Shown here: positions 7,924 to 31,167 of the stretch, in pieces
Layout of the letters: every line of letters starts with the position of its first letter
How positions within the stretch are numbered: the first letter of the stretch is position 1
Source: Bacteroidia bacterium
Lineage (GTDB): Bacteria; Bacteroidota; Bacteroidia; SpSt-205
DNA length: 35,264 nt
Direction of reading: 5' to 3'
Assembly (NCBI GenBank): GCA_025059915.1
Contig: JANXDD010000007.1
Span: forward strand, 1 to 35,264
Position numbers and translations under genes: made by a program
The notes under the pieces: generated by a model
Databases searched by the model: none
Seen by the model: only the letters and a program-made list of their open reading frames with translations
What the model was told of the DNA's origin: nothing

Positions 7924-7931
7924 TATCTTTG
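7924..7931 (+). promoter_or_regulatory. Predicted -7 box TATCTTTG, 5 nt upstream of GTG start at 7937
   Basis: Exact TAnnTTTG motif. Confidence 0.7.
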
Positions 7932-13291: not shown

Positions 13292-13373
13292 GCCGAAGTG
13301 GCGGAACTGGTAGACGCGCACGTTTCAGGGGCGTGTGGGGTTTCCCGTGTGGGTTCGAGTCCCACCTTCGGCA
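13292..13373 (+). tRNA. tRNA-Leu(CAG)
   Basis: Class II; acceptor GCCGAAG/CTTCGGC, anticodon arm CACGT-TTCAGGG-GCGTG (CAG), GGTTCGAGTCC. Confidence 0.94.
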
Positions 13374-13399
13374 CAAAACGAGATTCATACCTTGCTCTC

Positions 13400-13912
13400 G
13401 TGCTGCCGCCTGCATATCCTTTCTGGCGTCAAAAAGCGCTGGACGTCTTTAGCCAAAAATATGCGCAATACGGAGAAAGCTGGAATGAGCTTTCTCTTCC
13501 ATCGCTGATAGACCTTCTTTACATAAAGGCAAGTCGGATTCGCACCCTTCTCCGAGGAGAGGGAGCGGCGGCGACAGGGGAATCTCCGATTCATGATTGG
13601 ATTGCTCTGGCAAATTATGCAGCGCTTACTTTGGCGAAGCTTCGGCAAGTGTCTCCGAGGGAGTCTCTTTCAGCTATGTATGCAGAGGCGCAGGCCCTTT
13701 TAGAGAAAAAGAATGCAGACTATGGCGATGCATGGCAGCACATGAGGCCGCTGGCTTTTGTTGAGTTTATACTTATGAAACTGGCACGACTGCGGCAGAT
13801 GGACTCAGCGCCCGATGAAAACGCCTCTGCTATAGCGGATAACCTCTTTGACATACTTAACTATGCCCTTCTATACTTGAGTCGGTATGGAGATGCGCTT
13901 GCTACCTCTTAG
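13400..13912 (+). CDS. DUF1599 (nucleotide-modification-associated domain 1) protein, internally duplicated
   Basis: Two related halves: [34 protein letters not shown] and [34 protein letters not shown]. The track start (13298) lies in tRNA-Leu; GTG at 13400 is the first plausible in-frame start after it. Confidence 0.78.
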
Positions 13913-14519
13913 AGTGTGGATGCAAATGGCAGTATTGGCAGCGCTCCTACATGTGATAGGAGCGCTGCTGATTGATTATCTGGCGTGGAAAGGTGGGTTT
14001 GTTTATCAAGTAATGGGAGGACAATTCCTACTTTTAGCAGGGGGGGTATGGCTTTTGATAGTGTTGGCGCTCTTCCTTGTGAGGATGCGTCGTTTTGGAT
14101 ATCTGGATCCCATACGAATTATTCTCTGGACCGTGGGGGTTGCTGCCCTCAGCGCCCCCCTCAAAGCTCTCGGCGAAAAGCTGATGGAGCCCCTTTTGAG
14201 GGCTGAGTATGAAGCGTATCCTGAGAAAAGAGCGGCGGCCTGGCGAGCCTATTTTCGGGCCCAATCAGAAGGAGGCCGCATAGATATCTCCCCCAAACAG
14301 CAAGAGGAGATCATTCAAAACCAGATCCGACTATATCACGCTTACCGAAAGCGAGAAGAGCACTTGGGCTATGCCATCATAGATCGGCTCAAGATTTTAG
14401 GGCTTTTAGGAATTCTATATGGTCTCATTCTCGGACTTCTTTTGCGAGGGGATGGTACTGGAGGACAGCCTGTGCCAAATCGCGTGGGAGGAGCTGAAGA
14501 TAATGTTGGGTCGTCGTGA
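13887..14519 (+). CDS. Hypothetical integral membrane protein
   Basis: At least three hydrophobic segments. Overlaps the end of the DUF1599 gene (operon) and the 3' end of the convergent recombinase gene. Confidence 0.6.
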   Translation: MEMRLLPLRVWMQMAVLAALLHVIGALLIDYLAWKGGFVYQVMGGQFLLLAGGVWLLIVLALFLVRMRRFGYLDPIRIILWTVGVAALSAPLKALGEKLMEPLLRAEYEAYPEKRAAAWRAYFRAQSEGGRIDISPKQQEEIIQNQIRLYHAYRKREEHLGYAIIDRLKILGLLGILYGLILGLLLRGDGTGGQPVPNRVGGAEDNVGSS

Positions 14520-15321
14520 GAGAGGCATGACCTAAAAGCTGTTGAAGGTAGGCGATATCCATTCCAGCCAGAAGGAGGTGGGTGGCATAGCTGTGCCGCA
14601 GAGCATGGGGACTAATAGGTCGCTCTATTCCAGCTAACCGAGCTGCTTCCCGTACGATGGTAAATGCTTGAATGCGTGTCAGCGCTCCACCTTTCTGGCT
14701 AAGGAGAAGGGCTGTAGTATTCTGCGTAGCCTGCTTGGCCCGGTGGGGAAGGTATGCCTCTAGTGCCGTGCGGATTCCCCGGCCGTAGGGAACCCAGCGG
14801 ACCTTCCCTCCTTTGCCATAGATCAGAAGCATCTCTTCTTGATGATTTATGTCTTCTAATCGCAGGTTGCATGCTTCACTTACGCGCAGACCTGCCCCAT
14901 AGAGCAGCTCAAGAAGAAGTCTATTTCTCCAGCCATGACGGCGGTCTGTGGGGTAGTTCTCTATCATTTGGCGAGCCTCCTCCGGGGTGAGATAGGTGGG
15001 TATTTTTCGCCAAAATCGTGGATTTTCCCAGAAGTTTGACAGGTCCTCGGCGAGATACCCCATTTCATACAGAAATCTCAATAGACTTCGCACCGCAGAG
15101 AGCTTACGAGCCAGAGTGATTGATTGCCATTCATTGGCTTGGGAAAGTAGGGCGAGCTTAGTTTCAATCTGATTGTACCTTAGGGGAGTTCCTATCAGGG
15201 GCATCAGGTCTCGTAGGTATGCTTGAAGGGTGGCTGGACGAAGCCCCTTTTCTATCTGGAGGTAATGGAGCCACTGAGTCAAAATATCTTTGGAAAGGTG
15301 AAGCGAATCCGCATTCTCCAT
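14425..15321 (-). CDS. Tyrosine recombinase, XerC/XerD type
   Basis: Catalytic set visible: GAGLRVSEACNLRLEDI (R), IYGKGGKVRWVP (K), HALRHSYATHLL (HxxR), LLGHASLTTTQHYLQ (H...Y). ATG at 15321 chosen because homology starts there and a -7 box precedes it; the track's upstream extension is antisense to aroQ. Confidence 0.92.
   Translation of the reverse strand: MENADSLHLSKDILTQWLHYLQIEKGLRPATLQAYLRDLMPLIGTPLRYNQIETKLALLSQANEWQSITLARKLSAVRSLLRFLYEMGYLAEDLSNFWENPRFWRKIPTYLTPEEARQMIENYPTDRRHGWRNRLLLELLYGAGLRVSEACNLRLEDINHQEEMLLIYGKGGKVRWVPYGRGIRTALEAYLPHRAKQATQNTTALLLSQKGGALTRIQAFTIVREAARLAGIERPISPHALRHSYATHLLLAGMDIAYLQQLLGHASLTTTQHYLQLLPRDLAQAVLQYHPLAKEVRE
15285..15292 (+). promoter_or_regulatory. 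Predicted -7 box TATCTTTG for aroQ, 5 nt upstream of its GTG; lies inside xerC/D coding sequence
   Basis: Exact TAnnTTTG. Confidence 0.65.
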
Positions 15322-15735
15322 GGTCCAAATGTAGCACAGATTGGAAAGGGCCGAGAGCCTCAGTGGTATGGGCATGAGCCATGGGAGCAGTTTTGGCTTA
15401 CTCTTCAGGAAAAATACGCGGGACAAGCAGAGCTTACTTACCTTAGTAGTGCCTCTGAGGGACAGCTGATTGAATGGATATGGGAAATAGAGAGGTATGA
15501 TGGGCTTATTCTCAATCCGGGGGCGCTGGCGCACACAAGTTTAGCTCTGTATGATGCTCTCCTCGGATGTGGAAAGCCCTGTATAGAAGTGCATTATAGT
15601 CAGATATATCGGCGGGAGCGCTTTCGTCAGCGTCTTATTACAGCGAGAGCGTGCTGGGGGGTCATCACCGGGCTGGGATGGATGGGGTATGAACTGGCGC
15701 TGCTTGCCCTCTTGCGTTATGAAGGAAGGGGATAA
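15298..15735 (+). CDS. aroQ: 3-dehydroquinate dehydratase, type II (divergent)
   Basis: IRILHGPNVAQIGKGREPQWYG, EGQLIEWIWE, DGLILNPGALAHTSLALYDAL, IEVHYSQIYRRERFR and GVITGLGWMGYELAL match type II DHQase. Active-site Asn (GPN), Arg/Tyr (REP..YG), Asn, His residues present. Confidence 0.88.
   Translation: MKRIRILHGPNVAQIGKGREPQWYGHEPWEQFWLTLQEKYAGQAELTYLSSASEGQLIEWIWEIERYDGLILNPGALAHTSLALYDALLGCGKPCIEVHYSQIYRRERFRQRLITARACWGVITGLGWMGYELALLALLRYEGRG
15326..15333 (-). promoter_or_regulatory. Predicted -7 box TACATTTG for xerC/D, 4 nt upstream of its ATG; lies inside aroQ coding sequence
   Basis: Exact TAnnTTTG on minus strand. Confidence 0.65.
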
Positions 15736-31159: not shown

Positions 31160-31167
31160 CAAAAGTA
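31160..31167 (-). promoter_or_regulatory. Predicted -7 box TACTTTTG, 3 nt upstream of pyrD GTG
   Basis: Exact TAnnTTTG. Confidence 0.6.

Follow-up and report, generated by a model that had tools for sequence, protein, structure and literature searches.

Organization of the aroQ/xer locus

The window, i.e. the whole stretch of 35,264 nucleotides that was analysed, contains two divergent genes whose 5' ends overlap. The aroQ gene (15298..15735, + strand) encodes a type II 3-dehydroquinate dehydratase of 145 amino acids, and the xer gene (14425..15321, - strand) encodes a XerC/XerD-like tyrosine recombinase of 298 amino acids. AroQ was identified by PF01220 (E 7e-38, over the cut-off) and by the subfamily model NF003807, also over its cut-off; the cut-off of the TIGR01088 equivalog was missed (134 vs 170 bits). 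The domains PF00589 and PF02899 identify the second product as a Xer-type recombinase. Its best NCBIfam model was TIGR02225 (XerD), matched below the cut-off with 248 bits vs 330, and the cut-off of the XerC equivalog was likewise missed (224 vs 335 bits). Genomes of this genus carry two Xer-like genes each, of which the xer gene next to aroQ is one.

Each of the two start codons is preceded by a -7 box located within the coding sequence of the other gene. The box of the predicted aroQ promoter, TATCTTTG (15285..15292, + strand), ends 5 nt before the GTG at 15298 and lies within xer codons 10-13. The box of the predicted xer promoter, TACATTTG (15326..15333, - strand), ends 4 nt before the ATG at 15321 and lies within aroQ codons 10-12, where it coincides with the Pro-Asn-Val codons of the HGPN motif. 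The two genes overlap head to head by 24 bp (15298..15321). Boxes, spacings and overlap had already been given in a preliminary description of this DNA, and all of these coordinates proved correct to the base. That description also emphasized that the two antisense frames are in exact codon register. This is true, as 24 is divisible by 3, but such a register is expected by chance in one case out of three and is uninformative in itself.

The scan for sigma-70 promoters and terminators gave no match at the locus. Folding of the RNA at the two predicted 5' ends showed nothing out of the ordinary, and these ends were not unusually unstructured. The xer gene is overlapped antisense at both of its ends, by aroQ and by a + strand gene for a hypothetical protein (13887-14519). 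The latter overlap is tail to tail and comprises 95 bp (14425..14519); it is kept in the genus, with 95, 89 and 44 bp in seven, three and one species, respectively, and the third bases of xer codons 292 and 294-301 within it are invariant. Additionally, a DUF1599 gene (13298-13912) and the gene for the hypothetical protein, which follows it on the same strand, share 26 bp. Across the genus, the genes keep the order DUF1599 gene, hypothetical gene, xer (- strand) and aroQ.

Conservation of the overlap and of both boxes in the genus

The locus was compared in 11 genomes of the genus, one per species, comprising the genome of the window and ten congeners found by alignment; all are metagenome-assembled genomes and several are incomplete. 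Those with names, among them KatS3mg025, KatS3mg026 and the SKW/SKY isolates, are uncultured Bacteroidia, and from these names we read a hot-spring origin of the genus. The AroQ and Xer proteins of the congeners are 64-78% identical to those of the window.

The start positions of both genes are invariant in the 11 species. The aroQ gene starts with ATG in nine species and with GTG in two, and xer with ATG in ten and with GTG in one. In three species (loci L034, L036 and L041) an in-frame TAG immediately precedes the aligned aroQ ATG. Together, the TAG codons and the invariant positions pin down the start codons as they had originally been called. An alternative aroQ start, the ATG at 15265 behind a GGAGG sequence, was considered and rejected; it is not conserved, and in three species it is followed by in-frame stops.

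Alignment of the locus in related genomes, proposed earlier as a check, showed the 24-bp overlap and both boxes in 11/11 species. Every species has a perfect TAnnTTTG as its aroQ box, exactly 5 nt before the start, and the xer box is TAyATTnG, always exactly 4 nt before the start. Compared with the consensus TAnnTTTG, the xer box is perfect in four species and has one tolerated change in the other seven; both boxes are perfect in the window. Among the six fixed positions of the xer box, variation (T, C or A) is confined to a single T; genome-wide, too, this position tolerates the most change, and its commonest variants are TTCG (10 seen vs 1.3 expected) and TTAG (7 seen vs 2 expected). The variants of the xer box found in the relatives, TTCG and TTAG, are thus exactly the changes that are most tolerated genome-wide.

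Because each box sits in a coding sequence, third-codon bases can be used to test it. Synonymous sites elsewhere in aroQ and xer are well diverged among the species. In aroQ, the third base is invariant at only 2 of 125 usable codons, 11 and 12, both of which are within the xer box. In xer, the invariant third bases outside the 3' end are those of codons 3, 6, 10, 11 and 12, the last three of which belong to the aroQ box. Codon 12 of xer encodes Asp, Ser, Gly or Asn in different species, and its third base is always T. The combinatorial probability of this coincidence, with the species treated as independent, is 4e-4 in aroQ and 3e-6 in xer.

On each strand, TAnnTTTG is found 0.35-0.39 times per kb; the probability of a box 3-7 nt upstream is therefore about 0.002 for one start and about 4e-6 for both starts of a pair. 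The conservation in 11 species makes chance untenable as the origin of the boxes. The full combination of both boxes, both starts and a 24-bp overlap was found once in each of the ten genus genomes sampled (10/10). Elsewhere it was found in 2 of 279 other Bacteroidia genomes, both times in unrelated sequence and at a rate like that of the reversed control (2 matches).

A -7 box at start codons throughout the family

The genome-wide distribution of the box was analysed in a single-contig relative within the genus (G005). The 1.6 Mb searched do not include the aroQ/xer locus; this locus (L037) was examined separately and has the same arrangement. Before in-frame starts, TAnnTTTG shows a sharp peak at 4 nt (ATG 152, GTG 50), and in the same 1.6 Mb its distribution before TTG, CTG and ATT is flat, without a peak. 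The pattern TANNTTTGNNNNATG was then counted in whole genomes and compared with the reversed pattern as a control. The counts were 185 vs 10 in the genome of the window (G000), 223 vs 16 in G005 and 155 vs 7 in a member of another genus of the family (G011). Outside the family they were 55 vs 41 in a member of the next family (G012), and the ratio was mostly 1-3 fold in other Bacteroidia. The contrast was sharper with the GTG version, which gave 66 vs 4 in the genome of the window and about 1:1 in most others. No comparable start-linked box signal was found in a sample of 297 genomes of the phylum, and in 47 other families it was at most partial. One family of the same class (f41, genomes G051 and G404) shows partial enrichment, with 357 vs 75 for ATG and 62 vs 21 for GTG in G051; this is perhaps an independent move to leaderless transcription.

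With genes called as uncurated longest ORFs, the box was present before 43% of the genes with divergent starts, 32% of those far from a co-directional neighbour and 12% of those closely following another gene or internal to an operon, against a background of 1-5%. By this distribution the box marks transcription units, which fits a promoter and does not fit a signal for translation. Shine-Dalgarno motifs are rare before every gene class (about 4-6%). The box motif of the genus is (G)TA[CT]C-TTTG, in which TTCG, followed by TTAG, is the most tolerated change. No enrichment of TTG as part of a -33 TTG/TTTG element was detected 10-40 nt upstream of 128 genus boxes, and no such element could be read at aroQ/xer. 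These position statistics and the conservation bear out the suggestion that the two boxes are genuine Bacteroidota -7 elements, each inside the other gene.

The window itself contains 12 candidate boxes about 4 nt before an ATG or GTG, at 7924, 15285, 17711 and 18420 on the + strand and at 31167, 29542, 27571, 25654, 24573, 22919, 17676 and 15333 on the - strand. A search with RF00177 gave no 16S rRNA match in five genus genomes (G000, G002, G005, G007 and G010), the single-contig one included, possibly owing to masked data or a limit of the search.

In Flavobacterium johnsoniae, transcription starts 4-5 nt after the -7 box (PMC6847099). With the box 4 nt before the start and this Flavobacterium spacing, the RNA is expected to begin with the start codon itself. 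The spacings of 5 and 4 nt at aroQ and xer fit such a placement, as does the genome-wide mode of 4 nt, and the predicted transcription start sites are 15297-15298 for aroQ and 15321 for xer. Both mRNAs are therefore predicted to be leaderless and complementary to each other over their first 24 nt, including the start codons. Taken together, these data strongly suggest leaderless transcription throughout the family for most promoter-proximal mRNAs, with start sites predicted from the Flavobacterium spacing. That the whole family appears to be leaderless had escaped the preliminary description. In the Bacteroidota studied so far, median leaders are 24-32 nt long, and leaderless or very short leaders account for 3.7-5.5% (PMC7366714, PMC9723704, PMC6847099).

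Geometry and origin of the divergent pair

In the 1.6 Mb of G005, 70 head-to-head gene pairs have boxes at both starts. Their start-to-start gaps range from 27 to 176 nt and are at most 48 nt in 38 of them; none of the 70 has a gap below 27 nt or an overlap. A gap of 27 nt leaves just enough room for two boxes and two 4-nt spacers. In these ordinary pairs the boxes are placed back to back, and the intergenic region is little more than both boxes, so that overlapping polymerase footprints can be inferred at many ordinary pairs in the genus. At aroQ/xer the gap is -24, and the boxes lie outside the two starts and face each other. This unusual orientation, with all other pairs being back to back, had not been noticed before. 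The aroQ/xer pair is the sole interlocked pair found in the DNA that was searched.

Outside the genus, aroQ and xer are divergent neighbours in 23 of 40 Bacteroidia loci, and the gaps measured between their starts are 36-151 nt, with one of 5 nt. In G011, whose genome is 66% complete, a search for aroQ gave no match, and a Xer gene near aroQ was not found in G012. The interlock looks like the end of compaction from an old and ordinary neighbourhood.

Interpretation of the interlocked promoters

The arrangement is probably best explained by two constitutive leaderless -7-box promoters that were fixed in this position by genome compaction and show at most mild mutual interference. Each gene would be transcribed from a promoter of the housekeeping sigma factor (sigma-ABfr type) consisting of little more than a -7 box, with transcription beginning at or within one base of the start codon, so that both mRNAs would be leaderless; such an anatomy would be the normal promoter of the family. 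The divergent pair probably goes back to early Bacteroidia, in which its spacing is usually normal. In the genus, the start of each gene would have shifted beyond that of the other, ending in a coding overlap of 24 bp; each box would thereby have come to lie within the opposite gene and would have been retained there ever since. Both promoters are most likely ordinary and constitutive; two polymerases oriented towards each other at a distance of 24 bp would probably interfere mildly with one another and not form a bistable switch. The analysis shows the positions of the features, their conservation, the genome-wide motif statistics and, for the DNA that was searched, that the interlock is unique; the transcription start sites, leaderless translation, constitutive expression and the degree of interference are inferred.

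The preliminary description had instead predicted a transcriptional either/or switch, in which the firing of one promoter excludes the other and the cell expresses either the shikimate enzyme or the recombinase. Part of its reasoning holds. With 24 bp between the predicted start sites and transcription directed inward from both, two polymerases cannot form open complexes there together, and each transcript crosses the box of the other gene; moreover, the arrangement does not vary in 11/11 species and is the only one of its kind among the boxed pairs. Steric exclusion, however, is not a switch. A chromosome-resolution-type recombinase and a shikimate enzyme are ordinary constitutive housekeeping functions, and a second Xer-like gene is present in the genome. 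Neither a regulator site nor any other part of a switch was identified at the locus. Crowded divergent promoters are the rule in the genus (38/70 gaps of at most 48 nt in G005), and the divergent neighbourhood is old in the class, with aroQ and xer normally spaced in most Bacteroidia. E. coli bidirectional promoters do compete when one side is strongly activated, but five of them that were tested showed no polymerase competition at basal activity (PMC12825309). A switch is thus unlikely; in a weaker form of the idea, interference may still trim or balance the output of the two genes.

We regard it as quite improbable that the two genes control each other as mutual antisense RNAs, with a 24-nt duplex hiding both leaderless start codons and balancing the two proteins post-transcriptionally. 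Provided that both transcripts begin with their start codons, the sequence itself makes them complementary over 24 nt, and this is kept in all species. The complementarity is, however, forced by the overlap itself, transcripts from one locus need not meet, and no sign of selection on pairing beyond the overlap was found.

It is also very improbable that the boxes are translation-initiation signals and that the mRNAs begin elsewhere. A fixed distance from the start codon would suit such a signal, but the motif is identical to the -7 consensus of Bacteroidota sigma-A and is located at the distance that places the transcription start at the start codon (PMC6847099), and operon-internal genes are preceded by it 3-4 times less often than divergent ones. 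Finally, an origin of the boxes by chance or as a by-product of codon choice in the overlapping gene hardly deserves credence: TAnnTTTG is short and the GPN motif of AroQ gives most of the xer box (TTnG) regardless, but the remaining free positions are third-codon bases that are invariant (GTA/ATA, AAA, xCC and xxT, 11/11), and both boxes would arise by chance in about 4e-6 of cases.

The Bacteroidota studied so far do have leaders although they are without Shine-Dalgarno signals, and a few per cent of their mRNAs are leaderless. If the proposed reading is true, a family with a genome-wide start-attached -7 box would be the counterpart in this phylum to Actinobacteria and Deinococcus. Transcription start sites and start codons could then be predicted straight from the sequence, and the family would be a natural test of the limits of promoter compression. 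The aroQ/xer locus would mark such a limit, as its two promoters are wholly within each other's coding sequence and the conserved GPN motif of AroQ, on the opposite strand, provides the larger part of the xer promoter. A more far-reaching proposal is that the family switched to leaderless transcription as its main mode by way of a -7-only promoter fused to the start, with aroQ/xer as its one fixed interlocked, face-to-face case whose reciprocal interference sets a functional protein ratio; in this full form it is rather doubtful.

Comparison with known systems

The boxes share the -7 consensus of the sigma-ABfr promoter (-33 TTTG and -7 TAnnTTTG) known from Bacteroides fragilis, B. thetaiotaomicron and Flavobacterium. 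The genus differs in having no visible -33 element; this element is also not evident in F. johnsoniae, so its presence is not a strict criterion. A second difference is that the family has the box 4 nt before the start as a rule, whereas the median leaders in the studied relatives are 24-32 nt. The promoters pR and pL of coliphage 186 are, like those of aroQ and xer, placed face to face (convergent) a short distance apart, and they show transcriptional interference. The aroQ/xer pair differs from them in having no identified regulator and no sign of a bistable output.

In the E. coli bidirectional promoters described by Warman et al. (PMC12825309), as at aroQ/xer, the polymerase sites on opposite strands are too close for joint occupancy. 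These promoters have a pseudo-symmetric core and outward transcription start sites; the aroQ/xer pair does not belong to this type, as its boxes lie outside and its predicted transcripts converge and overlap by 24 nt.

In the leaderless genes of Actinobacteria and Deinococcus-Thermus, a promoter element likewise makes transcription begin at the start codon for a sizeable fraction of the promoter-proximal genes. The phylum and the core promoter are different there, the element TANNNT being located some 12 bp upstream of the start (Zheng et al. 2011, PMC3160421). That survey, whose search was tuned to Pribnow-like boxes, reported leaderless genes in 1 of 37 Bacteroidetes/Chlorobi genomes (2.4%; PMC3160421).

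Divergent (5'-5') overlapping gene pairs are very rare, with 2 among 663 overlapping pairs in E. coli (PMC4161906). The aroQ/xer pair belongs to this class by its overlap of 24 bp in 11/11 species, and it is distinguished from other such pairs by the fact that both of its predicted promoters are identified and embedded in the opposite gene and that the overlap is fixed in the genus.
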